A DNA stretch of 59,791 nt from an uncultured Blastocatellia bacterium (lineage in GTDB: Bacteria > Acidobacteriota > Blastocatellia > Pyrinomonadales > Pyrinomonadaceae), in contig CAMLLD010000040.1 of the NCBI GenBank assembly GCA_946480785.1, forward strand, positions 1-59,791, given 5' to 3'. Positions 1 through 53,083 of the stretch are shown piece by piece; the first letter of the stretch is position 1; every line of letters begins with the position of its first letter. Under the pieces are notes generated by a model that had not been told where the DNA came from, ran no database searches, and worked only from the letters and a program-made list of their open reading frames with translations. The translations under genes were made by a program, and so were the position numbers.

Positions 1-14
1 TCCCGTCAGTACCG

Positions 15-1091
15 TCATCCCTTCACCGCACCGGCGGTCAGGCCGGCCGAGATCCGGCTCTGGAACAGCACGAACAGCACCACCACCGGCAGCGCGGTGA
101 GGCCGGCCGCCGCCATCAGGCCGCCGTAGTCGGCACCGTGCGTGGGGCTGGACTGGAAGATGAGCAGGTAGATCATCGCGGTCTGCTTGCTGTTGTCGAG
201 CAGCAACGTGTTGACGTCGCCCGCGGCTTCCACGGCGCGGCCCGACATCGCGAGCACGTTGTGTTGAATGAGCCGGTCCATGCCGGCGATACCGATCGCG
301 GAGAGCAGTCCGCCGATAGTCGTGGGGATCAGACAAACGAGCAGCGAGACGAGCACGAAGATCGTCTGCGACGCATTTGAATAGATGGCGAACGGTTGCA
401 GCGTGACGACGGCGAGCAGGAAGATGATCGTCAATCCCGCAAGTAGGATGTTGAGCGCGATCTCGTTCGGTGTCTTTTGTCGCGAGGCGCCTTCGACGAG
501 AGCGATCATGCGATCGATGAACGTCTCACCCGGGTTCGACGTGATGCGCACTTTGATGCGATCCGACAGCACGCGCGTGCCGCCGGTCACCGCGGAACGA
601 TCGCCGCCGGCCTCACGAATCACCGGCGCGCTCTCGCCCGTGATCGCCGACTCATCAACCGAGGCCACACCCTCGACGATCTCGCCGTCGCCGGGAATGA
701 ACTCACCCGCCGAAACGATCACGAGATCGGTCTTGCGCAGTTCGGGCGCGGGCACATCTTCCGTTAACGCATCAGAAAGCACGCGATGCGCGATCGTTTC
801 CGTCTTCGCTTTACGCAGATTGTCGGCTTGCGCTTTGCCGCGGCCTTCAGCCATCGCTTCGGCGAAGTTGGCGAAGAGCACCGTGAACCAGAGCCAAAGC
901 GTGATCTGAATCTCAAACGCTGTATGCGGGCCTCGAATCATCTGTAGCGTCGTGAGCACGCTGCCGACCTCGACGACGAACATGACGGGATTCGCCATCA
1001 TCCTGCGCGGGTTAAGCTTCAGGAACGCGTCGATGATCGCGCGCCTGACGATCTGTCCGTTCCAAATCTGCTTCGATCTGTTTTTACTCAT
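15..1091 (-). CDS. kdpB: KdpB N-terminal half fused in frame to the C-terminus of a sugar ABC permease (chimeric)
   Basis: Residues 1 to about 299 are KdpB, the P-type ATPase subunit of the high-affinity potassium pump: TM segments, the actuator motif TGES at 151-154 and the approach VNTLLLD, whose Asp299 would be phosphorylated. Instead of DKTGT the chain reads DNSKQT and continues as the last 60 residues of a MalG-type sugar ABC permease ending LTAGAVKG. The P and N domains are missing (KdpB is normally near 680 residues), so no pump function is possible. Bases 1-195 are visibly richer in G+C than the rest. Just after the stop an overlapping ATG (MTVLTG) suggests another gene leaving the window. 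The start overlaps the kdpA end by 8 nt. Either an assembly chimera at the contig edge or a real rearrangement; I favour the former. Confidence 0.85.
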
Positions 1092-2826
1092 ATAGCAGCA
1101 AATGCTCGACGACTGGTCCCAGACTCAGCGCCGGAAAGAACGTCAACGCGCCGACGATCACGATCACGCTCACCAGCAACGTCGTGAACAACGGCGTCGT
1201 TACGGGAAACGTGCCCAGCGACGGCGGCACGATCTTTTTGCTCGCGAGACTTCCGGCGATCGCGAGCATTGGAATGATCATGAAGAAGCGGCCCACGAGC
1301 ATCGCGATGCCGATCGTCGTGTTGTACCAATAGGTGTTTGCCGAAATTCCCGCGAAAGCAGAACCGTTATTGCCTGCGCCGGATGTGAACGCGTAAAGAA
1401 TCTCGGATAGACCGTGTGGGCCGGGATTGTTGAGTTGCGAAGTGCCGAAGCCAGGAGAGACCGATGAAATCGCCGCGAGCACGAGGATCGTTAATGGAAA
1501 GACGAGCACGACGAGCATCGCCATCTTCACGTCGTAAGCTTCGATCTTCTTGCCGAGATACTCCGGCGTGCGCCCGACCATCAGGCCTGCGATAAAGACT
1601 GCCAGGACGATGTAGATCAGAATGCCGTACAGGCCCGCGCCGACACCGCCAAACACCACTTCGCCGAGCATGATGTTGGCGAGCAGGACGAGTCCGCCGA
1701 GCGGCGTGAAACTGTCGTGCATGCCGTTGACCGCGCCGCAGGAGGCGTCGGTGGTGACGGTGGCAAAGAGGGCGGAGTTGGCGATGCCGAAGCGGACCTC
1801 TTTGCCTTCCATGTTGCCGCCGGACTGTGTCGCGGTCGCGGCCTGGTCCACCTGCGCGCCCAGCAACGGATTGCCTTTGACTTCTGACCAGTAGGCAACG
1901 ATGACACCCGCGCAGAACAAGACGGACATCGCAGCAAACACTGCCCAACCATGCTCTTGCGCACGGGTCATGCGACCGAGCGTATAAGTCAGCCCGGCCG
2001 AGACCGCGAAGATCGCGATCATTTCGAGAAAGTTTGTGAAGGGCGTCGGGTTTTCGAAAGGATGGGCGCTGTTTGTGTTGAAGAAGCCGCCACCGTTTGT
2101 GCCCCACTCTTTTATGAACTCCTGCGACGCGACTGGTCCCTGGGCGATGGTCTGCTCGGTCGCGCTCGTGTTGCCTTTGTCGATCAACTGCGCTTTGTCG
2201 TAAGCGCGCAAATTTTGCGGCACGCCTGCGGCGACGAGCACCAGCGCGCCAACGACACAAAACGGCAGACAGACCCACAGCGCCGCGCGCGTCATATCGA
2301 CCCAGAAGTTTCCGATCGTCTTCATCTCGCGCCGCGCGATGCCGCGGATGAACGCGATCGCGAGGGCGATGCCGACCGCCGCGGAAACGAAGTTGTGATA
2401 CGCGAGCCCGGCCATCTGCGTGAGATAACTCATCGTCGTTTCGGGCACGTACGACTGCCAGTTTGTGTTCGTGGTGAATGACGCGGCCGTGTTGAATGCA
2501 GAAGCGACGAACCCGTTCGCATCAACACCCGGTAGCTGCTGCGGGTTCAATGGCAGGTGGCCTTGCACGCGTTGCAGCACGTACAACAACAGCATCGACA
2601 CACCGCTGAACAGCAGCATCGTCACCGCGTATTCCGTCCAGTGCATCTCGCGGTTTTCATCAACGCGCGTGAGCTTATAAATCACGCGCTCCACCGGACG
2701 CAGCACCGGATCGAGAAACGTCTTCTCGCGGTTGAAGACGTGGGCCATGAAGAGGCCGAGCGGCTTCGTGATCGCGAGAATCACGAGAAAGAAAACCAGG
2801 ATCTGTAACCAGCCATTGATCGTCAC
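1084..2826 (-). CDS. kdpA: Potassium-transporting ATPase subunit KdpA
   Basis: The potassium channel-like subunit of the KdpFABC pump in the inner membrane, 580 residues, normal family length. Selectivity-filter segments of all four repeats are visible: [27 protein letters not shown], the [10 protein letters not shown] region and [10 protein letters not shown]. The start is GTG at 2826 (complement of cac), one base after the kdpF stop, giving MTINGWLQ. About ten hydrophobic segments. Part of a leftward operon with kdpF upstream and kdpB overlapping downstream. Expression is probably governed by the riboswitch and RTAAAG boxes near 4.55-4.81 kb. Confidence 0.97.
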
Positions 2827-2827
2827 T

Positions 2828-2917
2828 TCAAAACTTCTCCGGCCGCAGCAACGCGTACGTCAGGTAAACAAGCAGCAACGCTGCAGCCACCAAACTCACG
2901 ATCGTCTCCAGGCTCAT
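2828..2917 (-). CDS. kdpF: KdpF, 29-residue pump-stabilising peptide
   Basis: A 29-codon gene reading MSLETIVSLVAAALLLVY then LTYALLRPEKF. One transmembrane helix with the typical KdpF ending (Y.LLRPE.F), placed directly before kdpA with a 1-nt gap. KdpF is a single-span lipid-like stabiliser of the KdpABC complex. Its ATG overlaps the TGA of the 28-residue gene upstream (ATGA), so translation is probably coupled. Confidence 0.9.
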   Translation of the reverse strand: MSLETIVSLVAAALLLVYLTYALLRPEKF

Positions 2918-3000
2918 CGCAACCTCTCGCACGCGCGCACGTAGCCAATCGCAATCAGAAAGAACCCAATCGTTACGGCTACAAACATCAGGTCCAGCAT
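2914..3000 (-). CDS. 28-residue single-TM peptide upstream of kdpF
   Basis: Encodes MLDLMFVAVTIGFFLIAIGY then VRACERLR: one hydrophobic helix followed by a short basic tail. A purine-rich stretch (gggag) precedes the ATG and its TGA overlaps the kdpF start. Similar micro-proteins with a Y-V-R-x-C-(D/E)-R-L ending occur before kdpF in other non-enteric bacteria, from memory and not checked. Function unknown; position and coupling suggest an accessory or assembly peptide of the Kdp complex. Confidence 0.75.
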   Translation of the reverse strand: MLDLMFVAVTIGFFLIAIGYVRACERLR

Positions 3001-3010
3001 CTCAACTCCC

Positions 3011-4171
3011 TCACTTCGGTACCGGTGAATCAAACGTAAATATCGTGGCGAAGATCAGCAGATGCTGACTCGGCGTTAAGCCGACCGCGCCTGACGGCAG
3101 CGCGGCACCGCGAAAGAAACCCCCATCCGGTCCGCGTGAATCGTCGAACCGATGTTCGAGACGAAAGATCGCGCTGGCCCAACGATACGGAACGCGATAT
3201 TCGACTGTTGACGTGAATGCTTTGACGGTTTGTCGCGCGAGGGTCCAACGCCCGTCGCGGTCCCAGAACACTTCCGGTCGAAACGACAAACTCCAGCGAT
3301 CGTTCAGCGCCCAATGAGTCGGCAGTTGCCACGACATCATCAGAGCGCGCGGCTTGCCCGGCGCATCGACACGCTCCGTTGCGAAGATGTATTCGGTGGC
3401 GAGAGTAAACTTTCCGGTCTTGCGTTCGACCATCGTATCGGTCAGATAACGCCAGAACTCGGACGCGGTGTTACGCTGATGTGGTCCAACAAAGCCTGTT
3501 TCTTTCAACGTGATCTTGGGCGTAACTTTGTACGCGATCTGGCCGCCCGCGCTCGGCGCGTTGTTCGCTCGCGCGAGATGCCAGTAACCGTTGACGACGA
3601 AGAACGTGCCGGTGAGTTTCTTCGTGAACGGATAACTCGCGTTCGCGCCCATCATCAGATACGGCGTGAAGTCGGCGCCCCACGGACGCGTGTAGTTGAA
3701 GTTGTCTTTGGCGTAAAGCGAGTCGTAGCCGATCAGACTCGTGAAGATGCCCGCTTGCAGCGTGAGTCCTTTGCCTACCGGTGCGCGATACGAAACGTTT
3801 GTTGGACCAAGATGGCGCAGAAACTTGTTGCCGGCGATGTTCGGCGCGGTCGCTGAGAAACCGAAGAGCTCGTCGTCTTTGCCCACGTGCGCAGTCAACT
3901 CCACACCCCAGCGCGACTTCTCGGTCGGCTTCTTTCGCGCATAAACGCCGGCCATGTTTAGCCACACGCTGTCGGTGCGAAACGCAGTCCCGCGGCTGCG
4001 AAAAAGATGGTTCGCGGGATGATTGAAGTTGAGCGGATAAGCTACGTCGGCGAACGCGCCGTACTGCCAGTCCGTATTCGACTGCTGTTCGCTTTCTTCC
4101 CCTGACTCCTGCGCGAAACCAACCCCGGCCACCGTCAGCAACAAAAGAAAAGTGATCGCGGCGCGCGTCAT
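3011..4171 (-). CDS. Outer-membrane beta-barrel porin (OmpL-like, BBP2 family) in the kdp operon
   Basis: 386 residues with a clear Sec signal peptide (MTRAAITFLLLLTVAGVGFAQ) and then alternating amphipathic strands rich in aromatic residues, without the plug or TonB-box features of a receptor. The DWQYGAFADVAYPLNFNHP start and the RPWGADFTPYLMMGAN region resemble the putative beta-barrel porin-2 (OmpL-like) family. Its start overlaps the stop of the upstream membrane gene by 4 nt (ATGA), and it lies just before the kdp peptide genes, so it is co-transcribed with the pump. A role in letting potassium or other ions cross the outer membrane is inference. Confidence 0.75.
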   Translation of the reverse strand: MTRAAITFLLLLTVAGVGFAQESGEESEQQSNTDWQYGAFADVAYPLNFNHPANHLFRSRGTAFRTDSVWLNMAGVYARKKPTEKSRWGVELTAHVGKDDELFGFSATAPNIAGNKFLRHLGPTNVSYRAPVGKGLTLQAGIFTSLIGYDSLYAKDNFNYTRPWGADFTPYLMMGANASYPFTKKLTGTFFVVNGYWHLARANNAPSAGGQIAYKVTPKITLKETGFVGPHQRNTASEFWRYLTDTMVERKTGKFTLATEYIFATERVDAPGKPRALMMSWQLPTHWALNDRWSLSFRPEVFWDRDGRWTLARQTVKAFTSTVEYRVPYRWASAIFRLEHRFDDSRGPDGGFFRGAALPSGAVGLTPSQHLLIFATIFTFDSPVPK

Positions 4172-4470
4172 CGTTGTTTCCTTTCATCCTGCGTTTCGAG
4201 CAGGTCGAGGCAATGCGCGCCGAGAACTAATAAAGGAATCGTCAGGAACAGAAGAATCGTGCCGGAGCGTTGCACCGAGTGGCCGTGCCAAACGGCGCCC
4301 GTGAACCACGCGATCGCTGTCAGAATCGATCCGAACACACCCGCGCAGACACCGCCGCAAAAGCCGAATGCAGCGGAGCACGTCTTCAACGTCCAACCGT
4401 GACAGCGCAATTCACTGATGATCGAACGTGGCGTCAATTCGTTTGCCGGCAACGTCTCTTCGCTGCTCAT
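4168..4470 (-). CDS. Small two-TM membrane protein, first gene of the kdp operon
   Basis: 100 residues from MSSEETLPANEL. I chose the ATG at 4470 because any longer frame would begin inside the intrinsic terminator at 4488-4522; an AGGTGG stretch lies a few bases upstream. Two hydrophobic segments (about 28-52 and 60-80) are separated by a short loop with several Cys (CSAAFGFCGGVC), followed by a charged tail (LLETQDERKQR). No family recognised. It is the first coding region after the c-di-AMP riboswitch and is translationally coupled to the porin. Confidence 0.7.
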   Translation of the reverse strand: MSSEETLPANELTPRSIISELRCHGWTLKTCSAAFGFCGGVCAGVFGSILTAIAWFTGAVWHGHSVQRSGTILLFLTIPLLVLGAHCLDLLETQDERKQR

Positions 4471-4487
4471 GCCGCGTCCACCTACCG

Positions 4488-4522
4488 AAAAAGAAAAGGC
4501 GCGAAGCACAACGCTCCGCGCC
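4488..4522 (-). terminator. Intrinsic terminator, expression platform of the kdp riboswitch
   Basis: On the minus strand a 10-bp stem GGCGCGGAGC / GCTTCGCGCC (one G-U pair), loop GTTGT, is followed directly by TTTTCTTTTT. It sits between the c-di-AMP aptamer and the first start codon, so it would stop transcription before the kdp operon. This fits an OFF switch. Confidence 0.85.
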
Positions 4523-4551
4523 AAGGCAGTAAGGCGTATGTTGTCCTTCCT

Positions 4552-4760
4552 CTAAAAGCCTGCGAGGTTAGCTGACGGGCTTGGACCAGGAAGTGTCCGA
4601 CGTTACGTCACACAGCGTCCACGATGCTGATCGTTTACGCGCGCGCTTTCACGATGCGCCCCATGTCCCGCACCTGCGAGACGTTTGGTTCCCCCGCGCT
4701 GCCCCTCTCGATCAATTGATCGGCGAGCAGCCTCGGCGACTGGTTATCAACCTTCATAGC
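4552..4760 (-). ncRNA. ydaO: c-di-AMP riboswitch (ydaO-yuaA class)
   Basis: The 5' leader of the kdp operon contains the hallmark 3' core CCCGTCAGCTAACCTCGCAG (minus strand, about 4562-4581) followed by GC and TTTTAG. Upstream are GGGGGAACCA near 4690 and a GGGGCGCATC segment near 4660, matching the conserved internal GGGGAACC and GGGTGAATC-like elements of this class. The family binds cyclic di-AMP and typically shuts off potassium uptake or osmolyte genes when the nucleotide is high. The exact 5' boundary is approximate. A strong terminator follows at 4488-4522. Confidence 0.88.
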
Positions 4761-4774
4761 TTACGCCGCGGCAG

Positions 4775-4813
4775 ATAAAGGGCGGGTAAAGAGTTTATAA
4801 AGAGTTCGTAAAG
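4775..4813 (-). promoter_or_regulatory. Four RTAAAG direct repeats at 11-bp pitch, candidate KdpE operator
   Basis: ATAAAG (4775), GTAAAG (4786), ATAAAG (4797) and GTAAAG (4808) recur with exactly 11 bp between starts; on the minus strand they read CTTTAY. OmpR/PhoB-family regulators bind as head-to-tail dimers to direct repeats of about 11 bp, and the E. coli KdpE site is TTTATA/TTTACA-like. The block is immediately upstream of the riboswitch, where the kdp promoter must lie. Confidence 0.7.
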
Positions 4814-5001
4814 ATCGGCGTATTATTTCTGCGCGTCTCAGGGCAACTGGCAAGGGGACTAGAATGGCAGAGCGGCGTATAAAGGTGGCACGTGAATGAG
4901 CGCCAGAATGGTCCAAGCAGCGATTTGTACGAGCACAATTTAACCGCGACTTTTTGCGACACTCGACTCGACATGGCACTGTCACTAATGATGACTAACC
5001 G

Positions 5002-5604
5002 ATGCCGAGTTATCGGACCTTTACATTGGATAAAGCCACAGATGGTACGGTAGAATCCGTTGACGAGATGATTATAAGATTGCGACAAGCTGGAAAAGCT
5101 AATGTACCCGAAGAATCGAAGGCCGTGGTGCGATTATCCTCGTGGCAATGTATTGTGGAGCCATACCAGCCGTATCACCGAAACTCAGTTTTTGACTTGC
5201 TAAGGGATTTACCTCGACTGTACCCAAACGGCTATAAGTGGCTGGATCGAAGGTTATCCGACGTTCTTGCGAAGAAGGCCCGATGCACATTGGCATTACT
5301 GGGCAATTTACCCGTGGGTTTGACAATCGAAACCCCAAAAGGTGCTCACGCAACCAAACTTTCGACTATTGTTGTGGATCCCCGTTATCGCAACCACGGT
5401 CTCGGGAATGTCCTAATGAATGCCTGCACACGGAGTTGGTTGAGGGATGGAATTTCGCAGGTCCATTTAACCGTCGATGTAAGCCTATCGGAAAAGGGCG
5501 TCGCTCCCTTGCTGCGGCGCTATGGTTTTTTCGATGGAGACATCGAGCGCCAACGCTACGGCTTGAACAGAAGCGAGTTAATTCTCATATGGCGTAACTC
5601 CTGA
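5002..5604 (+). CDS. GNAT-family N-acetyltransferase
   Basis: 200 residues. The acetyl-CoA pyrophosphate-binding motif A is visible as VVDPRYRNHGLGNVL at about 127-141 (R-x-H-G-x-G pattern), preceded by a beta strand (KLSTI) and followed by the usual late RRYGFF segment near 178. The substrate is unknown; GNATs acetylate small molecules, peptides or tRNA-bound amino acids. First gene of a three-gene rightward cassette with lower G+C than the flanks (one line counted at 43%, against about 62% in a backbone line). No obvious Shine-Dalgarno precedes this ATG, so the start is tentative. The cassette separates the kdp operon from kdpDE. Confidence 0.8.
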   Translation: MPSYRTFTLDKATDGTVESVDEMIIRLRQAGKANVPEESKAVVRLSSWQCIVEPYQPYHRNSVFDLLRDLPRLYPNGYKWLDRRLSDVLAKKARCTLALLGNLPVGLTIETPKGAHATKLSTIVVDPRYRNHGLGNVLMNACTRSWLRDGISQVHLTVDVSLSEKGVAPLLRRYGFFDGDIERQRYGLNRSELILIWRNS

Positions 5605-5651
5605 ATCAGTCTTCAGATATTAGCTCACAATCCTCAACAGGCGAGAAACAT

Positions 5652-6800
5652 ATGGCGTACTTTGCAGTAGTTCGGGATGCTTACGATGACGACTTCAATG
5701 TAGTTGCCTGTCACGTCAATCTATGGGCACTTTCAGCCTCACTAAAACGACGCATTTTCTGGTGTGATGTTGGCCTTCGGTTAAGAGGAGGCGCAAGAGA
5801 GATATCAAAGCTTTCATTGGCGTTGCCATTTAGAACTGAGGATAACGGCGTGGAAGACTTGTCAGACGTTATTCTCGAGCAGAAAGTGGCGGAATTGGTT
5901 TTTGGAAAACCTGTAAGGATCGATGGCTCAACGATCAACTACAGTTCCGCGGGCGCCGGCGGTCAAGATGTCACAACAAGTCTTAACGTTCTCTCAATAA
6001 TCCGTGGAGAAACGGAAATCAATCAGTCCCTAAGCGGAGACGACTTCTGCTACTGGACATTGAAATTCGCAAGACCTCTTCGCCACAACGGATTAGATTC
6101 ATACCTTCGCGTTAGATTTCACGTCAGAAACGCCGATAGAATCTGGAGTTGGAAGCGGACGTGTATGCTGAAAAACGGCGCACTTGTAGATTTACGCGTG
6201 ACTGATGTCCGAGGCTCGTTCGTGGCGGCCAGGGATTGGAATACGTTTAGAGAGCGAATCGTCACCATCCCACAGTTGAATATGTTCGTGATTGCACCCT
6301 CGTGGTTACAACCTAGGGCCGCAAGTCCTGAATACCATTACATGCGATTGTTTGAGGGTCGCGTGTGGGAACCATATCTACGAAGACTAGTAGATCTGAA
6401 ACGCAAGGAAAAGCTAACAGTATTTCAATGGCGAAATGACAAGGCAAAGGCAATCGATTCCAATAACTCTTATCACGTGATGCTGGACCTAAGTGATGAA
6501 TTTGGAGTTTTCGATCTTAAGAATCATCTGATAGCGGGAATTGTTTTAGTGATTTTTCTCGGGGCAGTGTTGCTCCTGCGACATTTCTACTATAGCTATG
6601 CTGTTTATATTCAGCCCAAACTTGAATCACTATGGACTTGGGCATTTGGGCTGAAGTTCGCCGGAGTAATAACCTTCATTTGGTTGCTGATCTGGCAATT
6701 GTATAGAAATTATGAGCGATTCGATCGCTCGACGCAGGCTATTAGAAATTGGCTTCGCGCAAAGGAAGAACGAAGATACCGCAAGAACCTGCTTAATTAG
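5652..6800 (+). CDS. Unknown membrane protein with beta-rich N-domain and two C-terminal TM helices
   Basis: 382 residues, no family recognised. Residues 1-290 are a mixed, probably soluble domain with hydrophobic/polar alternation suggesting beta strands; helices at about 292-315 and 334-352 form a hairpin that leaves a short, very basic tail (KEERRYRKNLLN). No signal peptide, so the large N-domain is predicted to be cytoplasmic. It starts 47 nt after the GNAT gene and ends 5 nt before the next gene, so an operon is likely. Membrane-tethered proteins of this layout are common among effectors of conflict systems, which is only a hint. Confidence 0.75.
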   Translation: MAYFAVVRDAYDDDFNVVACHVNLWALSASLKRRIFWCDVGLRLRGGAREISKLSLALPFRTEDNGVEDLSDVILEQKVAELVFGKPVRIDGSTINYSSAGAGGQDVTTSLNVLSIIRGETEINQSLSGDDFCYWTLKFARPLRHNGLDSYLRVRFHVRNADRIWSWKRTCMLKNGALVDLRVTDVRGSFVAARDWNTFRERIVTIPQLNMFVIAPSWLQPRAASPEYHYMRLFEGRVWEPYLRRLVDLKRKEKLTVFQWRNDKAKAIDSNNSYHVMLDLSDEFGVFDLKNHLIAGIVLVIFLGAVLLLRHFYYSYAVYIQPKLESLWTWAFGLKFAGVITFIWLLIWQLYRNYERFDRSTQAIRNWLRAKEERRYRKNLLN

Positions 6801-6805
6801 ACTAA

Positions 6806-7546
6806 ATGACTATTGAGAAGCACGCCAATCTCGTAACGAAGGGTGATTATGCAATTGACCTTGTTGTGAAATTTAGCCAACTTATACCTGCCATCCAACG
6901 CCTGCAGTTCAAAGCATATTCTTCCCTTCCGACATTAGACGAGCGGGTTGACGAATCTCCTGCTATTGGACTCATGGATCGGGTTTCGGAGTTGAGGAAG
7001 CTTACGGAAGATCTGATTCCCTACTGGGAATTGGTTTTCGCAGTGACTTGGCAAAGTGAGCTTAGCGAGCAATTCATTCGTGAGGCGCTTCGACATCGCC
7101 CCGCCGATGAAGCGATAGACATTTTTGAGACGAATGTTGATTCGGTAGCGGATACTCTTACGAAAAAAATAGAAACCCTACCGGATGATGCCGCCATTGC
7201 TATCTGTTCCCGATGTATCACTGTCGACGGCTCAATCAAGCACATACCCATGATGGACTTCCGGTGCAAACCGACAGAGTCCAATCTGAAGAAACTCAAG
7301 ATCGCATTGCACCAGATGGGACAAAAGCATGGAGCGCTCATACAGTCTGGTCGTTCCTTTCATTTTTATGGCTTTGACTTATTGACGGAAGACGGTTGGA
7401 GGAAGTACCTGGCTCAATCTTTGTTGATGGCTCCAATTGCGGATTCGCGTTATATCGCACATCGGTTGATTGAGGGGGTAGGATCTCTAAGAATAACGAA
7501 CTGTCGACCTAAACCCGATAAACCCTTTGTCGTCGACCTGCTGTGA
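6806..7546 (+). CDS. Primase-fold-like (AEP/primase 1D-like) protein
   Basis: 246 residues. The C-terminal half (about 125-246) has the order of an archaeo-eukaryotic primase core: strand HIPMMDFRC with Asp151, a helix, SGRSFHFYG with His186, then SRYIAHRLIEG and SLRIT with Arg215, His219 and Arg229. The usual metal-binding D-x-D/E is DFR, so catalysis may be lost or altered. The pattern matches what I remember of proteins called primase 1D-like; this could not be checked. Residues 1-120 look helical. No Shine-Dalgarno; the start is 5 nt past the preceding stop, which implies coupling. Confidence 0.55.
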   Translation: MTIEKHANLVTKGDYAIDLVVKFSQLIPAIQRLQFKAYSSLPTLDERVDESPAIGLMDRVSELRKLTEDLIPYWELVFAVTWQSELSEQFIREALRHRPADEAIDIFETNVDSVADTLTKKIETLPDDAAIAICSRCITVDGSIKHIPMMDFRCKPTESNLKKLKIALHQMGQKHGALIQSGRSFHFYGFDLLTEDGWRKYLAQSLLMAPIADSRYIAHRLIEGVGSLRITNCRPKPDKPFVVDLL

Positions 7547-7585
7547 TCCAATACTCCGAACAAATGTTTCCATGATGGACCGGAA

Positions 7586-8287
7586 TCAAGCTGGTTGCGG
7601 ATCAAACCGATAACCGATCCACGGTTCGGTGAGGATGTAGCGCGGGTGAGTGGGGTCGGGTTCGAGTTTTTTGCGGAGGTTGCCGACGAAGACGCGCAGG
7701 TATTCGTTCTGTTCGACGTAGTTGCCGCCCCAGATGGCAGCGAGGAGTGTGCGGTGCGTCAGGACTTTGCCGGAGTGTCTGACGAAGTAGACCAGGAGAT
7801 CAAACTCTTTTGGCGTTAAGTGAACTTCGCGATCCACAACAACAACTTTTCGGGTTTCGAGATCGATGTGGAAATCGCCGGCGGTCAAAACAGTGGATTC
7901 GGGTTCGGGGGTGACGGCACTCGAGCGGCGCAACGAGGCGCGAACGCGCGCGAGTAGTTCGTCGATGCCGAAGGGCTTGGTGACGTAGTCGTCCGCGCCG
8001 ATGTCGAGCGCTTCGACTTTCGTTTTTTCCTCACCCTTCGCGGAGAGCACGATGATGGGCACTTGCGAGATCGCGCGCAGGCGACGACACAGCTCAAGAC
8101 CATCCATCGCGGGCATCGCGAGATCCGTGATCACCAAATCAGGATGCCAGTCGGTGAACGTTTCGAAACCGGCGAGACCGTCGGCCGCGACGCGCACGTC
8201 GTAACCGCGCGACGTCAGACCGGTGCGCAGCACGCGCGTCAGTTGCGGCTCATCGTCTACCACGAGAATGCGCGGTTTGTCGGTCAT
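7586..8287 (-). CDS. kdpE: KdpE-like OmpR-family response regulator
   Basis: 233 residues: receiver domain (1-120) with acidic pair Asp11-Asp12, phospho-acceptor Asp55 in VITDLAMP and Lys104 in VTKPFG, then a winged-helix DNA-binding domain (LTPKEFDLLVYF, NEYLRVFVGNLRKKLEPDP, IGYRF). The VFVGNLRKKLEPDP segment is characteristic of KdpE. It lies 2 nt after a KdpD-like kinase. Probable target: the RTAAAG repeats at 4775-4813 before the kdp operon. It ends convergently with the cassette at 5.0-7.55 kb. Confidence 0.9.
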   Translation of the reverse strand: MTDKPRILVVDDEPQLTRVLRTGLTSRGYDVRVAADGLAGFETFTDWHPDLVITDLAMPAMDGLELCRRLRAISQVPIIVLSAKGEEKTKVEALDIGADDYVTKPFGIDELLARVRASLRRSSAVTPEPESTVLTAGDFHIDLETRKVVVVDREVHLTPKEFDLLVYFVRHSGKVLTHRTLLAAIWGGNYVEQNEYLRVFVGNLRKKLEPDPTHPRYILTEPWIGYRFDPQPA

Positions 8288-8289
8288 AG

Positions 8290-9447
8290 CTAGGCCACGG
8301 ATGACCCGGATTTTTCGTCGTCGCCAATCGGGAGGGTGAACACGACCCGAGTGCCGCGGCCCGAGGACGGGGATTCGATCCAGATCTTTCCGTCGTGTGC
8401 TTCCACGATGCCTTTCGCAATCGCGAGGCCCATGCCCGTGCCGGACGGTTGCTGCGTGCTGATATCACCGTCGCGCGTCGCGCGGAAGAACTTATCAAAC
8501 ACACGCTCGCGCAGACCAACGGGCACGCCCTCGCCCTGATCTTCGACCGCCATCTCAACCATGCCGTCACGCAATCCGGCGCTGATCCTGATCGTCGTAC
8601 CCGCTGGTGAGTACTTCGTGGCGTTGTCGACGAGCGTGTAAACCACTTCACTCACTGCTCGTTCGTCGACGCGCACGGCCGGCAGTTCTTCGGCGATCTT
8701 CACTTCAACTTTGTGATCCTTCGTCAGCGGTTGGGCGCGCGCGAGGGCGGTCGACACGATCTCGTCGATCGCGCCCCACTGCCGCCGTAGTTGTAACTCA
8801 CCCGCGTCGATGCGCGCCAATTCGATCAGCCCGCTGATGAAACGATTCAAGCGATCGCTCTCTTCGTCGATTACCTGCAGCATCTCGAAACGCGAGTCTT
8901 TGTCGAGTGCAAACTCCGGCGCGTGCGCTTCGTCGATCAGCGTCGTGATCGAGGCTTTGATGGAGCTTAACGGCGTGCGGAGATCGTGCGTGACCGCGTC
9001 GAGTAGCGCCGACTTTAATCGTTCGCTTTGCTTCAACGCTTCCGCCTGGCTCGCGCGTTCGAAGGCGCTGCGTAGTTCTTTGTAGAGACGTTCGATTTCG
9101 TGGCCGCTGCGTTCGGCTTCTTCGGCGCGGCGTTTTTCACGCGCGGAGAGTTGGCCCACGGCGAGGGCGGTGGTGAAGAAAGCGAAGAGCGCGATCCAGT
9201 TTTCGGAGTGGGCGATGCTTAGCGTGTAGAGTGGCGGGAGGAAGAAGAAGTTGAAACAGAGCACGCCGACGACGGAGGCGATGAGTGCCGGGCCGCTGCC
9301 CCAGAACAGTGCTACGAAAAGGACGTCTAAGAGATAAGCGAGCGCGGTGGTGGTGGAGTTGATGTGGTCGCGGAACGGTATAAGTACCGCCGTAACCGCA
9401 GCGGTGGCGAAAAGAGAAACAAGGTAACCAAGCCGTTTGTCACTCAC
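8290..9447 (-). CDS. kdpD: Short KdpD-like sensor histidine kinase (DUF4118 + HisKA + HATPase)
   Basis: 385 residues from a GTG start. Residues 8-100 hold the four-helix KdpD membrane module (DUF4118, with FNFFFLPPLYTLSI), then a coiled linker, HisKA with His154 in TDLRTPL context (VTHDLRTPLSS), and an HATPase with N and G boxes (DNATKYSP, GEGVP, GTGMGLAI). Full KdpD is near 890 residues with an N-terminal KdpD sensor plus USP domain; both are absent and a different gene lies immediately upstream. Paired with KdpE 2 nt downstream. Confidence 0.88.
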   Translation of the reverse strand: MSDKRLGYLVSLFATAAVTAVLIPFRDHINSTTTALAYLLDVLFVALFWGSGPALIASVVGVLCFNFFFLPPLYTLSIAHSENWIALFAFFTTALAVGQLSAREKRRAEEAERSGHEIERLYKELRSAFERASQAEALKQSERLKSALLDAVTHDLRTPLSSIKASITTLIDEAHAPEFALDKDSRFEMLQVIDEESDRLNRFISGLIELARIDAGELQLRRQWGAIDEIVSTALARAQPLTKDHKVEVKIAEELPAVRVDERAVSEVVYTLVDNATKYSPAGTTIRISAGLRDGMVEMAVEDQGEGVPVGLRERVFDKFFRATRDGDISTQQPSGTGMGLAIAKGIVEAHDGKIWIESPSSGRGTRVVFTLPIGDDEKSGSSVA

Positions 9448-9500
9448 TACGCAGAGCGTCCTTAGCGACGGCCGTAGGGGAAGGAAATCTAAAACGGATT

Positions 9501-10943
9501 TTAACGAATCCCGACCAGGCCCTGCACCGATTGGATCAGCTTCTCGGTGTCGTAGCCGACGCCGTCTTTGAAAACGATCTCGACCTTTTCGATGTCGCTG
9601 ATACTGGCTGCCGGATTTCCTTTCACCACCATCAGGTCCGCCTGCTTGCCGGGTGCGAGCGAGCCGATGCGCGCGTCCTCGCCGAGAAACTTCGCGCCGT
9701 TCAGCGTCGCAATCTTGATTGCCTCTAAAGGCGTGAAACCCGCTTCCACGAGCAACTCCACCTCACGCTGATCGCCAAAGCCCGCGACGATGCCGCCGTT
9801 GCCAGTCGGATCGAGCCCGGCCAGCAGCAAACCACCAGCCTTCACAAACGCGCGCTCGAAATCCATCGCCTTGCGCAACAGCGCGACATAATCAGAACCA
9901 CCCGGCACACGCGCGCGATTCTGTAGATAACGCACGCGCGCATCAGTCGACATCACATTCAACATCCGCGGATTCAACAACGCACTCGCCGCGCCGATCC
10001 CACTCTGCGTCAACGGCGCGCTGGCTGCTTCAAACACGGGCAACGTCGACGTCACGGCTACGTTCTTTTGCACCAAAACACGAATCGTCTCCTGCACCGG
10101 CGCACTGTTCAGATCCAGTTGCCGCAAGCTCGCATTCACGGCAGCGCCGGGACAAACATCCGGTTTCTTGTCCGCGACAAACTCCGAATCCGCAAACAAG
10201 CCGTGTTCGAGATCGTCAATCCCGATCTCCGCTGCTTCGCGATAACCGATCGAACACAGATGTCCCGTTACTTTCAGCCCGCGCTTGTGCGCTTCTTCAA
10301 CCGCGGCGCGCAGCTCGTCGCGCGTAATGTTCATGTAGGCCTTGAACGAGGTTGCGCCTTCATCCGCCCAATAAGCAACCGTGCGACGCGCGTCGTCCGC
10401 GTCTTTCAACTCGTGCATCACGGGCGTGAACGAGCCGCGGCCTTCAAGATACGGCGCGGTGACGTGCATCTTTGGTCCAATCATGCGCCCCGCGTCGATC
10501 AGGCGTTTGATCTCGAGGTCGGTATAAGGCGCGACGCTGCCGGTGGTACGAATGGTGGTCACGCCGAGCGCGAGGTAAAGACGCGGAAAACTGCTGCCCA
10601 TGTTCGAGTACATCGGCGGCGAACCGCCCATGGGAAAGAACATGTGGTTGTGCATGCCGACGAGCCCCGGCATGACCGTGTAGCCGTTGAGATCGAGCGT
10701 GCGCGCGTCAGCGGGATAGGTCGTGGCCGCGGTTGGACCAATCGACTGAATCTTGCCGCCAGAGATAAGGATGGTTTGATCGTCGAGAGGCGCCGCGCCC
10801 GTACCGTCGATAACGCGCACGTGCGTGAGCGCGATCAGTGGCGCTTCGACGCGAATGAATTGTTGACGATCAGAAGTTTGAGCGAATGCGGAAATTACAA
10901 ACAGAAACAGGCACAGGAGGACCAGTTTGGTTTTCATGCGCAC
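9501..10943 (-). CDS. Secreted imidazolonepropionase-like amidohydrolase
   Basis: 480 residues with a signal peptide (MRMKTKLVLLCLFLFVISAFAQ). The metal-dependent amidohydrolase fold is shown by VMPGLVGMHNH (first two metal His), GHLCSIG, DLEHGLFADS and the ending GSLAPGKQADLMVVKGNP. The closest general class is the imidazolonepropionase/Xaa-Pro dipeptidase-like amidohydrolases; the substrate cannot be told. It lies 5 nt from the hybrid kinase stop and 53 nt before the KdpD-like gene, so it may share a transcript with either. Confidence 0.85.
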   Translation of the reverse strand: MRMKTKLVLLCLFLFVISAFAQTSDRQQFIRVEAPLIALTHVRVIDGTGAAPLDDQTILISGGKIQSIGPTAATTYPADARTLDLNGYTVMPGLVGMHNHMFFPMGGSPPMYSNMGSSFPRLYLALGVTTIRTTGSVAPYTDLEIKRLIDAGRMIGPKMHVTAPYLEGRGSFTPVMHELKDADDARRTVAYWADEGATSFKAYMNITRDELRAAVEEAHKRGLKVTGHLCSIGYREAAEIGIDDLEHGLFADSEFVADKKPDVCPGAAVNASLRQLDLNSAPVQETIRVLVQKNVAVTSTLPVFEAASAPLTQSGIGAASALLNPRMLNVMSTDARVRYLQNRARVPGGSDYVALLRKAMDFERAFVKAGGLLLAGLDPTGNGGIVAGFGDQREVELLVEAGFTPLEAIKIATLNGAKFLGEDARIGSLAPGKQADLMVVKGNPAASISDIEKVEIVFKDGVGYDTEKLIQSVQGLVGIR

Positions 10944-10948
10944 GCATT

Positions 10949-13276
10949 TTACGTCAAAGCGCTCTGCTGTGCTGCACGCTGTCGCGGCATTTTTTGCAGG
11001 AGACAGGCGAGCGCCTGGATGTCGAACGGCTTGGTGAGGTGCGCGACGAATCCCTGGTCGTAAGCGCGTTGCACGTCTTCCGGCCGGCCAAAGCCGGTGA
11101 GCGCCACAGCCGGCAGCTCCTGGTAACCGGGCATCTGGCGCAGCCGATTGAGAAACTCAAACCCGTCCATGCCGGGCATGGAGATGTCGGAAAGGATCAC
11201 GTCAAACTGTTTCTTACCGGCGACTTTTAGTGCTTCAAACCCACTGGTCACCGCCGTCACGGTCGCGCCGCCGATTTCGAGCAGATGCTGGACCATCTCG
11301 GTCGTGTCCGCCGAGTCGTCGACCACGAGGACGTTCATTCCGTCCAGCGAGTTGATGCCATGATGGTCCATGACCGACCTGCTTCGCAGTTGCTTTTCCT
11401 GGCTGCGTGGCAGGTGAATGGTAAAGCTCGCGCCCTCGCCGACGCCGTCGGAATGAGCCGTGACAGAGCCGCCGTGCAGCTCGACGAGTTGCTGGACCAC
11501 CGCGAGGCCGATGCCCATGCCGGATTGGGAACGATTCGTGCTCGGATCGGCCTGGCGAAAGATCTCAAAGATGTGTGGCAGGAACGACTCGTCGATTCCC
11601 TGCCCGTCGTCCTGCACCGTCAACACGATGTGCTCGGGTTCGTTGTGCAGCCGGACGGCGATGTGCCCGTCACGCGGAGTGAACTTCACCGCGTTGTTCA
11701 GCAGGTTCCAGATCACCTGTTCGAGTCGCACCGGATCCGCTTCGACGAACACTACATCGGACGGAGCGTCTATTTCGATCGAGATGTTCTTCGCTTCCGC
11801 TTCCATACGCACGGTCTCGATCGCGTTTTCGATCGCCGCAACCGGCGAGACTGTCTCGCGGTTTAGTTCCAGTTTGCCGCTGCGCAACCGCGATAGGTCG
11901 AGCAAGTCGCGAATTAGTTTCGACTGGGCCACTGCATTTCGTTTGACTGCATCGGCCATGCGCTGCAAGGGCGGCGACTGCTTGATCTCATCACTGCGCA
12001 ACAACAACTCCGCGTAACCCAGAATCACATTCAACGGATTGCGCAGTTCATGTGACATGATCGCCAGAAACTCATCCTTCAAACGGTTGGCTTCTTCAGC
12101 GGTATGCCGCAACCCGTGCTCGCGCTGGAGCAATTCTTCTCGCTCTTCTTCGACGCGCTTGCGTTCGAGGTAATCGGCTGCCTGGCGCGCCAGCAGATCC
12201 ATCAACCGGATCTCCTGCTCCGTGGGCCGGCGCGGGTTCGTGAAGTGAGTTGAGATCACGCCGAGCACGTGGCCCGCGCTGCTGATCAACGGCATCGACT
12301 GCACCGCGCGCACGTTCGCGTCGAGCATAACGCGCAAAGAGGGCGTACCAACAAACAGCGCGCTCTGCCGCACGTCTTCGACGATCACGCGCTGCTGCGA
12401 TTCAATGGCGCTGCCGCACGCGGAAAACGGAGTTTCAGTTGCGAAGTAGTCGAGAAACATCGCATCGAAACCGGATTGCGCGATGAGAGTCAACCGGCCG
12501 GTATCGTGGTCCACTAACTGAATGTTTCCCTTGTCGGCGCCGCTGATCTCGATGGCGACATTGAGCATCTCCTGCAGGCAACCAGACACATCGTCTCCAT
12601 GGCGCGCGCAACGGGTACCGATGTCGTTCAGCCGCCGCATGGCTTTCAGGTCGGCGGCGCTGTGCTCGAGAATGCGAAACAGCCGGCGCTCGCTGTCGCG
12701 CAGCTCTTTGGTGCGTTCGGCCACCAACTCTTCGAGCCCGCTCTTCGCCTGCCGCAGTTCTTCTTCGAGTTTTTTCTGCGCCGTGAGATCCGTGACGACG
12801 ATGCTGATGGAATTGGTTTGCGGCTGGAGTCTTGCGAAAGAAATGAGGACCGGCACTTCTCGACCCGATTCATGCCTTAGGAAATATTCATGGCGGACAG
12901 GCTGCGTGCGCGCCTGATCCAGGTCTTGGTCAAACTGCTCGCGCCGATCGCCGATCACCAGATCGCCAAACGACCTGCCGCTGACGTTCGTACCGTTGAG
13001 CCCGAGCATGCCGGCGAAGTTGCGATTGCTGTAAAGGATCGTTGAATCAGGCGCCACACTCACGGCGCCCTGGTTCATCTCATCGATCATGAGACGATAC
13101 GGATAATCGGCCGTCGTCAGTGTGTAAATAACTTCGCCCTGTGGGTCATCGATCACCAGGGCATCGACTTCACCGCTTCTAATCGCGCGCAGCGTGTCTT
13201 CGGCTTCCTCCAGGCGCCGGCGCAGCTCGTCAATCTCGGTATCAGTTACGCGTTCGAATTTGTCTCCCATAGTCAT
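10949..13276 (-). CDS. Hybrid sensor kinase (PAS-GAF-HisKA-HATPase-REC) of the kai operon
   Basis: 775 residues, no TM segment, so cytoplasmic. Order: short coiled coil (DEIDELRRRLEEAEDTL-like), PAS (about 55-170), coiled linker, GAF (about 230-375), HisKA with MSHELRNPLN, HATPase (GIDESFLPHIF, GMGIGLAVV) and a C-terminal receiver with DVILSDISMP. Its ATG overlaps the second kaiB stop by 4 nt, so it is translationally coupled to the clock genes. In cyanobacteria KaiC output goes through a KaiB-like-domain kinase, SasA; this kinase lacks that domain, and an output role is inferred from position. Confidence 0.9.
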   Translation of the reverse strand: MTMGDKFERVTDTEIDELRRRLEEAEDTLRAIRSGEVDALVIDDPQGEVIYTLTTADYPYRLMIDEMNQGAVSVAPDSTILYSNRNFAGMLGLNGTNVSGRSFGDLVIGDRREQFDQDLDQARTQPVRHEYFLRHESGREVPVLISFARLQPQTNSISIVVTDLTAQKKLEEELRQAKSGLEELVAERTKELRDSERRLFRILEHSAADLKAMRRLNDIGTRCARHGDDVSGCLQEMLNVAIEISGADKGNIQLVDHDTGRLTLIAQSGFDAMFLDYFATETPFSACGSAIESQQRVIVEDVRQSALFVGTPSLRVMLDANVRAVQSMPLISSAGHVLGVISTHFTNPRRPTEQEIRLMDLLARQAADYLERKRVEEEREELLQREHGLRHTAEEANRLKDEFLAIMSHELRNPLNVILGYAELLLRSDEIKQSPPLQRMADAVKRNAVAQSKLIRDLLDLSRLRSGKLELNRETVSPVAAIENAIETVRMEAEAKNISIEIDAPSDVVFVEADPVRLEQVIWNLLNNAVKFTPRDGHIAVRLHNEPEHIVLTVQDDGQGIDESFLPHIFEIFRQADPSTNRSQSGMGIGLAVVQQLVELHGGSVTAHSDGVGEGASFTIHLPRSQEKQLRSRSVMDHHGINSLDGMNVLVVDDSADTTEMVQHLLEIGGATVTAVTSGFEALKVAGKKQFDVILSDISMPGMDGFEFLNRLRQMPGYQELPAVALTGFGRPEDVQRAYDQGFVAHLTKPFDIQALACLLQKMPRQRAAQQSALT

Positions 13277-13671
13277 TCATTAATGCCCAACCCGATCAAA
13301 AGCTTCTGCGTATTGGACAAGTCACCGACGAACCGCCGCAACGGGGCCGGTAACCTTTTAATCAATGTCGGAGCCGCGATAATTTGCTCTTCGCGCGCGG
13401 CCTCGGGGTTCTTATAAATATCGATCACTTGAAGGTCATAATCATCGTGCAAGTGCTCTTCACAAACACGCTTCAAGTTCGAAATCGCCTTCAAGGAACT
13501 AGGTGAAGAACCGGTCACGTACAATCGCAAAATGTATTCCGCACGACGTTTATCCTGCTGCTTCGCGGCTCGCTCGAAAGCAGCGCTGGCATCGTGCCCG
13601 TTGCCTTTCAGCGAGCCGTTACCGTCACCTCTGATGTCGCCGTTCGGCATTTTTTCGCCGGAATTGGCCAT
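13273..13671 (-). CDS. kaiB: KaiB-like protein (second copy)
   Basis: 132 residues. After a variable charged N-terminal tail (1-45) comes the thioredoxin-like KaiB fold: LRLYVTGSSPSS, NLKRVCEEHL, YDLQVIDIY, AAPTLIKRLP and GDLSN near the end. KaiB binds the KaiC hexamer after switching fold. This copy diverges from the neighbouring kaiB mainly in the N-tail. It ends with the ATGA overlap into the hybrid kinase and begins 8 nt after the first kaiB. Confidence 0.9.
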   Translation of the reverse strand: MANSGEKMPNGDIRGDGNGSLKGNGHDASAAFERAAKQQDKRRAEYILRLYVTGSSPSSLKAISNLKRVCEEHLHDDYDLQVIDIYKNPEAAREEQIIAAPTLIKRLPAPLRRFVGDLSNTQKLLIGLGINE

Positions 13672-13679
13672 GAAAACTC

Positions 13680-14036
13680 CTAACGTGGCTGAATATCAAG
13701 ACCCACCAGCACACGCTCGGTGTTTGAAAGATCGCCAATAATCTTTCTGATCGGTTGGGGCAGCTTCCGCACTAACGTCGGTACTGCCAGAATCTGATCG
13801 CCCCGCGCCAGTGTAGGATTTTCCATCAGGTCGATGACTTCAATGTGATACTTACCCTTCAGATACTCCTCACAAATGTTTTTAAGATTTTGAAACGCGG
13901 TGATCGATCGAGGGGTCTGGCCGGCGACGTATAGCCGCAGGTTCCAGTGATTCGCTGCCGCGCGGCCGTCGCCTTCGGCTCCGTGGCCGTTTTTGGCGGC
14001 GCGCGCGCGCCTGGTAGTGGTGGGGGTGGTCTTCAT
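13680..14036 (-). CDS. kaiB: KaiB clock-type protein (first copy)
   Basis: 118 residues with a basic N-terminal tail ([11 protein letters not shown]) and the KaiB core [44 protein letters not shown] and IGDLSN. The start overlaps the kaiC stop by 4 nt. KaiB-KaiC pairs without KaiA occur in many non-cyanobacteria, where they may act as hourglass or stress timers rather than self-sustained clocks. Confidence 0.93.
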
Positions 14037-15799
14037 CTGGCGCTTCCTTTCCGTGCTTTTCGAGCACCGTTTCCTTCTACCGGCGTTGGAACGTCGGCAC
14101 GACGCAAGCGGGCCATCTCTACACGTTGATCCGCTGCAACGTCTTCGCGTTTCAGATCTTCTTCCAGTTCTTTGAGGATTACGTCGCGCTCGGATTCAAA
14201 CTGGCTGCGCAGCGCGATCAACTGCGCTTCGTACAACTCCTGCTTGCGGTGCAACTCGCGCTCTTTGCGCTGTCGCGCGGTTTCGCGCTCGACCGTCAAC
14301 GCTTCCTCTCGCGCTGCCTGTGCCGCACGCGCCGAGCCCATCAGCACGCCTTCGGAACCAACGTACGCATCGATGATCTCCATCCCGTGAGCGGTAAGAC
14401 GAAATTCGCGCACCTGGTTTGAGTGGGCGATGCCGCGCGCTTTCAGAACGTAGAGACCGCGGTTGCGTTCGCCGTTCATCTCGACGTTCTTCACGAGCAA
14501 CCAGGCATCCATCAGGGACGAAACGCCGACTTCCGAGTCTTCGATCTCGCTCGTGGCGCCGGTGAGCGTGGTGAACATCGCGGTGATCTCCCTGGTCTTG
14601 AGAAAGTCGATCAAGCGCGTCAGCATCGACTTCGTTTCGACGGCGTCGCCGACAGCGAGGAAATTGGAGATCGGATCGATCACGACGACGCTAGGCTGAG
14701 ATTCGGCGATGGCTTTATGGATCAGCGCGAGATGTATTTCCAGACCGAAGTTTGACGGCCGCGAATTTTGGAATTTCAACAGGCCCTGCTTCACGTAAGG
14801 CTCGAGATCGATACCGATCGAGCGCATATTGCGAAGGATTTGATCCTGCGACTCTTCAAACGCGAAGAAGAGCGCCCGCTCGCCGCGTTTGCAGGCGGCA
14901 TCGACGAAGTGGGCGGCGATCGTGCTTTTGCCCGTCCCGGCGGTTCCCGAAACGAGAATCGAACTGCCGCGATAGAAGCCCTTGCCGTCGAGCATGTTGT
15001 CGAGGCGGTCATTGCCGCTCGAGACGCGCTCTGTCGAGGCTTTGTGATTCAAACCGATCGAGGTGATCGGCAAAACAGAGAAGCCTTTCTCGTCGATGAA
15101 AAAGGGATACTCGTTTGTTCCGTGCGACGTGCCGCGATATTTGACGATGCGCAGACGACGCGTGGAGATCTGGTTCTCGACGCGGTTGTCGAGCAGGATG
15201 ACGCAGTCCGCCACGTACTCTTCGAGACCGTAGCGCGTGAGCGTGCCTTCGCCGCGCTCGCAAGTGATGACTGCGGTAACTCCTTTTTCCTTCAGCCAGC
15301 GGAACAGACGTCGCAATTCGGCGCGAACAATGCCTTCGCTCGGCAACGCGGAGAAGAGCGCTTCGAGGGTGTCGAGCACGACGCGCTTCGCGCCGATCTG
15401 ATCGATGGCGTAACCGAGGCGGAGAAAGAGTCCTTCGAGATCGTACTCGCCGGTTTCTTCGATCTCGGAGCGTTCGATGAAGACGTAATCTATCAGCAGC
15501 TTCTTATCGTCGATGAGTTGCTGGAGATCGAAGCCGAGCGATGCGACGTTGGTCATCAGTTCCTCGCCGCTTTCCTCGAAAGACATGAAGACGCCGGGTT
15601 CGTTGTAGAAGCTGGCGCCGCGGTAGAGAAACTCCATGGCGAAGAGCGTCTTGCCGGCGCCGGCGCTGCCGCAGACGAGCGTGGGACGTCCGGCCGGGAG
15701 TCCGCCGCTCGTAATCTCATCGAAGCCGGAAATGCCGGTCAGTTCTTTTCGCAGACCGGCGGTGTTATTCGAACGGTTACGACGGTTCGTTTTGCTCAA
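14033..15799 (-). CDS. kaiC: KaiC ATPase/kinase with extended coiled-coil C-terminus
   Basis: 588 residues from a TTG start at 15799 (AGGAG lies 9 nt upstream). Two RecA-like domains: CI with Walker A GSAGAGKT (44-51) and catalytic FEE (Glu75-76); CII with GTAGTGKS (about 285-292) and FEE (Glu315-316). The phosphorylation pair equivalent to Ser431/Thr432 is Ser427-Ser428 (VSSLMD). Residues about 490-575 are a long charged, probably coiled-coil tail rich in Arg/Glu, absent from the 519-residue cyanobacterial protein. No kaiA is seen. An 18-bp palindrome lies 15 nt before the start. Confidence 0.95.
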
Positions 15800-15814
15800 T
15801 CAAAAGCGCTCCTG

Positions 15815-15832
15815 CTGGTACACGTGTACCAG
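15815..15832. promoter_or_regulatory. 18-bp perfect palindrome before kaiC
   Basis: CTGGTACACGTGTACCAG, a perfect inverted repeat centred on CACGTG, 15 nt from the kaiC TTG and just before its AGGAG. A TATA-like -10 candidate (TTATATAAAC on the minus strand) is at about 15871-15880. The palindrome is therefore in the leader and could be a repressor operator or an RNA hairpin next to the ribosome-binding site. Confidence 0.6.
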
Positions 15833-15922
15833 ACGTAAATTTTGGGGAACAAAAAGGCGGGGGTGCCGCCGTTTATATAACACACCTTGGGTTTTTGGCG
15901 GTAGAGCCAAGAGCGAGACAGA

Positions 15923-15955
15923 GCCACAAATAAACACGGATTACCACGGATCAGA
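15923..15955. repeat. Interspersed ATCYGTG-type repeat, copy 1
   Basis: Minus strand reads GATCCGTGGTAATCCGTGTT followed by TATTTGTGGC. It belongs to the same degenerate (T)AATC(C/T)GTG family seen at 16887, 22637 and 24124. It covers the 3' end of the YVTN propeller gene and the gap after it. Confidence 0.5.
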
Positions 15956-16931: not shown

Positions 16932-17242
16932 GTCAGTGTCGCCAACTCGTCGACTTCACACTTGAGCTGTGGGTGGGTGGGATCGGAGAGGTCGAGCTGT
17001 TCCCAACGAATGCGATAGCCTTCTTTGCGTACGTGCAGCGTGCGCAGGATCGCGCGTCCGATGCGCCACACCGACAGACGTTCCAGGATCGCATAACTCC
17101 CGATCAAAAACTCCGTCACAAAACAGGAACCACGCTCGTTGAGTTGCGCGCGTACTTCCTCCAGTCGACCAACCGGCTGGCCGTTCAGCGCAAGCACGCG
17201 CTTCCCAATCAACAACTCCAGATGTACTTCCTGCCGTTTCAT
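16928..17242 (-). CDS. PRC-barrel-like small protein
   Basis: 104 residues. The N-terminus ELLIGKRVLALNGQPVGRLEEVRA has the pattern of a PRC-barrel strand set, then an alpha/beta tail with basic patches. No signal peptide or TM. It ends with ATGA coupling to the propeller gene and starts 14 nt after the other PRC-like gene. PRC barrels bind RNA, photosystem or protein partners; here two lie next to an NRAMP-like carrier and may be its cytoplasmic regulators (inference). Confidence 0.6.
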   Translation of the reverse strand: MKRQEVHLELLIGKRVLALNGQPVGRLEEVRAQLNERGSCFVTEFLIGSYAILERLSVWRIGRAILRTLHVRKEGYRIRWEQLDLSDPTHPQLKCEVDELATLT

Positions 17243-17256
17243 CTACGCTCTAAAGT

Positions 17257-18827: not shown

Positions 18828-18833
18828 GTATCT

Positions 18834-50270: not shown

Positions 50271-50430
50271 GTCTGCTAAATCCGCGTTCTCGAGTTTGCG
50301 CCTACGACAAATAGCAGCACGGCAATCACGAGATCACTACGTTGCCGTTGTCCTCGATGCCATAGCGGTGACGAATACACTTGATCGCTGCGAAGATTGC
50401 CGTATCCATTTCGTCAATTTTTTCTTTGCG

Positions 50431-51082: not shown

Positions 51083-51161
51083 ACCGCGCATTCTCAGCGA
51101 TCCTGCTACGTGATGGCAAAGATGGGAAGCAAGGGGCACGGAGCATCCCTAAAGGCGGGGG

Positions 51162-51350: not shown

Positions 51351-51407
51351 GCGAGAATCACGTCCACAAACGAACCGTTACATCAAAAATCACGCCACAA
51401 AAAGTTT

Positions 51408-53069: not shown

Positions 53070-53083
53070 TCGCGGAGGATACG

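Follow-up and report, generated by a model that had tools for sequence, protein, structure and literature searches.

The window, by which we mean the whole 59,791-nt stretch analysed here (contig CAMLLD010000040.1 of an uncultured Blastocatellia bacterium), contains a three-gene cassette that encodes a GNAT acetyltransferase (P1), a membrane protein (P2) and a relative of the archaeo-eukaryotic primases (AEPs) that lacks one acid of the primase active site (P3). We tentatively propose, with about an even chance of being right, that this cassette forms a mobile conflict system acting against phages (or other elements), with P3 at its centre. In our best reading, this pseudo-primase is not catalytic and instead senses for, or regulates, effectors that can be exchanged, the effector here being P2. 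An earlier note on this DNA had suggested a conflict or signalling system; a conflict system is supported because many relatives of P3 sit beside proteins resembling known anti-phage parts, and it is defence activity itself that we infer.

A primase fold with an altered active site

P3 matches the Pfam family PF24387 ('Archaeo-eukaryotic primase 1D-like') with an E-value of 3.9e-33 and 114.5 bits (cut-off 27), and is by score a clear member. This is its sole Pfam match up to an E-value of 1, no other domain being recognised in its 246 residues, and a confident structure model shows the AEP primase fold. A sequence search of the PDB gave no real match. The primase-like fold predicted in the earlier note is thus borne out by both the family match and the model, and an unrelated fold did not emerge. 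The motifs listed there are also all present, namely MMDF (followed by R), SGRSFHFYG and SRYIAHRL, with D-F-R in place of D-x-D.

The second acid of D-x-D is missing throughout the alignment of P3 relatives (A1), which kept 45 of 58 hits, the other 13 being short, long or partly covered. The first acid, D151, is retained in 45/45 sequences, and D or E occurs at alignment column 153 in 0/45, in line with the suspicion, already voiced in the earlier note, that the nucleotide-binding fold might be inactive. In a wider set the second acid is absent in 24/25 and present in 1/25. The position is most often taken by Arg, otherwise by Ser, His, Lys, Asn or Ala. The S-x-H motif and the residues around D213 are conserved (Table 1), and D213 is a candidate for the third catalytic acid.

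P3 differs from RepB' primase and PrimPol AEP domains in its missing D-x-D acid, its length of 246 residues and the lack of any further recognised domain. It has no match to the AEP Pfam family of TOTE, a conflict system with an AEP, and the absence of a CD-NTase match among the three cassette proteins sets the cassette apart from CBASS. The AEP likeness of the P3 family is not new, being carried by its Pfam name and by the NCBI protein name 'primase 1D-like protein'. In the literature searched (preprints and most subscription journals lay outside its scope) we found no account of PF24387. Related defence papers, in the parts looked up, use 'primase' in unrelated senses or in reference lists only, and AEP appears once, as an abbreviation beside CRISPR adaptation modules in a figure legend (PMC10910872). 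The survey of partners of the P3 family is new here; neither it nor the membrane/GNAT variant was met in this literature, and the same holds for a PF24387 protein paired with a GNAT and an M1-like beta-sandwich anchored in the membrane.

We hypothesize that P3 binds a nucleotide or nucleic-acid end made in phage replication. Ligand binding rather than primer extension seems most likely because the AEP fold and site motifs are kept and the second metal-binding acid is gone; phage-replication intermediates are a natural guess for the ligand of a dead primase. Binding would alter the interaction of P3 with a co-encoded effector, which would then be released. The effector would be swapped between operons, being SIR2/DprA/phosphoribosyltransferase (PRTase), patatin lipase or dGTPase elsewhere and the membrane-anchored P2 here. 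The beta-sandwich of P2 might receive the signal and its transmembrane (TM) hairpin might damage or depolarise the membrane, leading to abortive infection, and P1 probably acetylates a component, for self-protection or tuning.

Genomic neighbours of P3 relatives

We examined 25 P3-family loci, some of them short or cut by a contig end. A scan of 84,980 species genomes yielded 19 loci; genome searches with PF24387 matched 9/1375 genomes, five of which were centres chosen for holding PF24387 and four of which were new; two further loci came from plasmids. The family was not found in viral contigs or phages. One fragmentary locus (L010) is counted among the 25 and is not in the tree described below, nor does the wide alignment include its second fragment. 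Pfam, PADLOC or the record annotation identified representative partners, and phmmer comparison with these representatives identified the others.

In 17/25 loci the neighbours of P3 fall into four partner sets: SIR2 with DprA and PRTase, patatin lipase, dGTPase, and a modification enzyme with a protein bearing a C-terminal TM hairpin (Table 1). The first three sets resemble known anti-phage parts at the sequence level. One representative of each partner matched PADLOC models, for ThsA (2.5e-63), ShosA (2.8e-51), ShosT (1.2e-5), a phospholipase effector (2.6e-9) and dGTPase (1.4e-30). In contrast to these relatives, the window cassette holds none of the ShosTA/DprA-PRTase, ThsA-like SIR2, dGTPase or phospholipase-effector parts. 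A DprA-PRTase pair is reported to protect against T7 and lambda (PMC9122126). PADLOC models matched neither the Mom-like protein nor the TM-hairpin protein of L003, nor any of the three P3 relatives tried.

In the patatin and dGTPase operons P3 directly follows the effector gene in 9/9 cases, the two being -10 to +13 nt apart. In the SIR2 set the P3 gene is convergent with the PRTase gene in 4/5 loci and co-directional with it in the fifth, which is on a plasmid. The modification-enzyme set mirrors the window cassette in layout, not in families, as judged from the predicted proteins. L003 has the order Mom, TM-hairpin protein, AEP-like protein, the same as in the cassette; L001 has AEP-like protein, Mom, TM-hairpin protein, and L002 has methyltransferase, AEP-like protein, TM-hairpin protein. 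The TM-hairpin proteins of these loci are mutually related (E-values of 1e-13 to 2e-5), and a hydropathy scan found two segments in that of L001 and an overlapping pair plus another in those of L002 and L003.

A tree of the P3 family (69 rows), whose bootstrap had not settled, recovers the dGTPase set as one supported clade (100/99) and the patatin set as one weakly supported clade (90/36) that spans Pseudomonadota and Verrucomicrobiota. On this tree two changes are required for the SIR2 set and three for the modification-enzyme loci. All partner labels together need 9 changes, versus a shuffled mean of 24.3.

Some loci have further genes of note. The dGTPase-P3 pairs of L047 (7723-9891) and L054 (9237-10859) lie near a gene that resembles a DNA methylase by eye, which would fit a defence island; the dGTPase-P3 pair of Pantoea was not matched by any E. 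coli DNA. Across P3 from the SIR2 genes, L005 encodes a protein with an Mrr restriction-endonuclease domain (6194-7897) that overlaps P3 by 13-14 nt, and L017 encodes a DUF2726 protein one open reading frame (ORF) beyond (6415-7299). In L008 and L013 the patatin proteins also have an iHKD domain (PF24402, 'Inactive HKD-Rease'), which gives these patatin-P3 operons a second apparently inactive enzyme fold.

The membrane protein and the acetyltransferase

The N-terminal region of P2 is a predicted beta-sandwich of the M1-aminopeptidase/ribophorin type, followed by two hydrophobic segments. None of four family libraries scanned describes the protein. We rejected P2 as an M1 aminopeptidase enzyme, given that it has no HExxH motif and no peptidase domain match. 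These absences, together with its two C-terminal hydrophobic segments, distinguish it from the M1 aminopeptidase N-terminal domain and from Ost1 (ribophorin I), which is a eukaryotic oligosaccharyltransferase subunit, unlike the bacterial P2. Homology of P2 to the TM-hairpin partners in L001-L003 is likewise unsupported (hhalign probability 1%, one side having three rows only), and their build is alike. P2 was found in no viral contigs and no plasmids; alignment A2 of P2 relatives left out 4/48 hits. A receptor domain of this M1-saddle type was met in no immunity source within the literature searched.

P1 is an intact-looking GNAT as far as its sequence tells, with RNHGLG at residue 130, which we take to fit the acetyl-CoA loop pattern. 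A protein search returned a single relative (49% over 68%). P1 matches ordinary GNAT models and not Mom (PF25680), a family that has a GNAT fold and whose members fill the modification-enzyme place in L001 and L003. GNAT toxin-antitoxin systems of the TacT/AtaT type have an adjacent small DNA-binding antitoxin; the neighbours of P1, which are P2 and a 118-residue ORF in a list of ORFs of at least 90 residues, have no Pfam match over cut-off.

Weighing the interpretations

As to conserved co-occurrence of the three genes, as envisaged in the earlier note, the layout recurs in L001-L003, and the exact trio was seen nowhere outside the window. A P2 profile matched at 0/25 P3 loci, with the window P2 as positive control (7e-138). 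Because P2 is absent from all 25, we weigh the conflict-system reading lower and chance neighbours higher. Several other observations also weigh against the conflict-system reading. P2 was found in 0/7 and 0/396 whole genomes, in searches that had no P2-bearing control genome and, in the second case, scored at most five candidates per genome. No relationship is detectable between P2 and the TM-hairpin proteins of L001-L003, these loci do not cluster on the tree (values as low in 500/500 shuffles), and the window P3 groups apart from them, with the metagenome relatives P0002-P0005. Some long contigs have one of P2 and P3 and lack any listed hit of the other; the close P3 relative P0004, for instance, is on a 123-kb contig, and no P2 hit is on an equally sized one. 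The contig of the P1 relative, compared by size, matches none listed for P2 or P3 relatives. Eight of the 25 P3 loci (six Patescibacteria-type, one archaeon and one Acidobacterium) have none of the four partner sets, and neither P2 nor P3 is covered by a PADLOC model.

Alternatively, P1 could be a lone GNAT beside a P2-P3 pair, or three unrelated genes could share one low-G+C island. The absence of P2 from the 25 loci, the absence of any demonstrated P1 linkage elsewhere and the wider gap between P1 and P2 (47 nt, versus 5 nt between P2 and P3) would fit such chance neighbours. We nevertheless regard this as rather unlikely, given the common strand and similar composition of the three genes and the shared gene order of L003 (Mom, TM-hairpin protein, AEP) and the cassette (GNAT, P2, P3). 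Linkage of P2 and P3 elsewhere is also suggested by two contig sizes (5809 and 4876) shared between 57 P3 and 46 P2 relatives, coincidences that are silent on adjacency (a contig size was missing for one P2 hit among the 48). When sizes were jittered, 2.3% of trials gave at least two coincidences and 0.1% gave two above 4 kb, a test made after the coincidences had been seen.

Two other roles for P3 are conceivable. P3 could be an antitoxin-like regulator that holds a toxic partner inactive (P2 here; lipase, SIR2 or dGTPase elsewhere) until release by the GNAT or by loss of P3. One small conserved protein does occur beside unrelated, potentially toxic partners, with genes overlapping or near-touching; these partners include ShosT/ShosA-like proteins, and DprA homologues are cited as antitoxins in one study (PMC9122126). 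However, conservation of the S-x-H and D/R motifs suggests a site for a ligand, and with DprA the SIR2 set already includes a protein of an antitoxin type, so that we consider this role unlikely; a toxin-antitoxin role and sensing by P3 are not exclusive. Alternatively, P3 might still be an enzyme that uses D151, S-x-H and possibly D213 in one-metal chemistry, making or transferring a nucleotide (a signal molecule or protein adduct) that activates nucleotide-sensing effectors. The retention of D151, S184 and H186 in 45/45 relatives and of D213 in 44/45 is consistent with this, as are partner effectors of types used with nucleotide signals (ThsA-like SIR2 and phospholipase) and a below-cut-off SLOG match in the ThsA-like SIR2 copy of L005. 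The loss of the second acid in 45/45 and 24/25 argues against two-metal nucleotidyl transfer, and we consider persisting catalysis improbable.

Returning to P3 as a non-catalytic sensor, it is possible, though doubtful, that PF24387 pseudo-primases, as dead primases that read phage replication, are the common sensor of a modular immune class, itself met in none of the literature searched, whose outputs are interchangeable and number four or more (membrane/GNAT, lipase, SIR2/DprA/PRTase and dNTP depletion), the window cassette being a membrane branch with an M1-saddle receptor domain. If so, a replication enzyme fold would have been turned into a general infection detector common to several unrelated killing modules, and the conserved P2 membrane protein family would gain a first role. 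The question of the P3 ligand would be directly testable, with one sensor family on four outputs as natural controls.

The cassette within the window

The ORFs, coordinates and composition agree with the three-gene, lower-G+C cassette described in the earlier note, as do the gaps, measured at 47 nt (P1-P2) and 5 nt (P2-P3), with the tight spacing given there. The three genes are co-directional. G+C content is 47.0% in the cassette (5002-7546), versus 59.3% (1-4524) and 58.8% (7586-20000) on its flanks, and G+C at third codon positions is 0.48-0.51 in the cassette genes versus 0.65-0.80 in six neighbouring kdp-region genes. Values as low occur in 3.8% of same-length segments of the 59.8-kb window, the cassette's own included, and the lowest falls within a second AT-rich region at about 52-55 kb. 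The cassette looks acquired.

Table 1. The cassette, its sequence features and the partner sets of P3 relatives
Feature	Position in window, or loci	Strand	Length or number	Remarks
Upstream intergenic region	4525..5001	.		54.5% G+C, intermediate between flank and cassette values
P1, GNAT	5002..5604	+	200 aa	Pfam Acetyltransf_1, 6.9e-7, above its cut-off
P2, membrane protein	5652..6800	+	382 aa	N-terminal beta-sandwich (~1-285) and two C-terminal hydrophobic segments
P3, AEP-like pseudo-primase (PF24387)	6806..7546	+	246 aa
D151-F152-R153 codons	7256..7264	+		AEP motif I, Arg replacing second acid
SGRSFHFYG, residues 181-189	7346..7372	+		S-x-H motif; S184 and H186 in 45/45
DSRYIAHRL, residues 213-221	7442..7468	+		D213 in 44/45; R215, Y216, A218 and H219 in 45/45
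SIR2+DprA+PRTase set	L004, L005, L007, L017, L056		5 loci
Patatin lipase set	L008, L011, L013, L016		4 loci
dGTPase set	L046, L047, L054, L055, L057		5 loci
Modification enzyme + C-terminal TM-hairpin protein set	L001, L002, L003		3 loci
None of the four partner sets	L006, L009, L010, L012, L014, L015, L018, L019		8 loci

One flank holds part of kdpB, kdpA, a BBP2 porin gene and the 118-residue ORF. The other holds a response regulator gene followed by that of a DUF4118 sensor kinase, the two being of KdpE/KdpD type. All of these genes occupy the minus strand, opposite to the cassette. Location between kdp and its regulators, as the earlier note had it, is therefore correct, and the insertion that it assumed found no direct trace: the three nearest porin relatives (54-65%), taken from 46 matching genomes among 199, have different gene orders and gave no empty kdp site; flanking repeats are 15-20 nt pairs judged to be chance; and there is no tRNA within the window. 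Promoter-like sites in 4400-7700 were not above shuffles (1 found, 4.2 expected).

Three minor features of the window are worth recording. In the protein database, P2 and P3 of the window itself are assigned to a contig of 48,512 bases, whereas the window has 59,791 bases without N, so that the assembly may have different versions or be joined. The kdpB gene is cut mid-gene (1-230), and its frame runs on into sequence that by eye resembles the C-terminal end of a permease from an ABC transporter; the assembly may thus have a junction near the window start. The second AT-rich stretch (48864-54835) has genes at 44-47% G+C, which encode a 468-residue protein without family, a DUF4407 membrane protein, an OmpA-family protein and a 284-residue protein without family.
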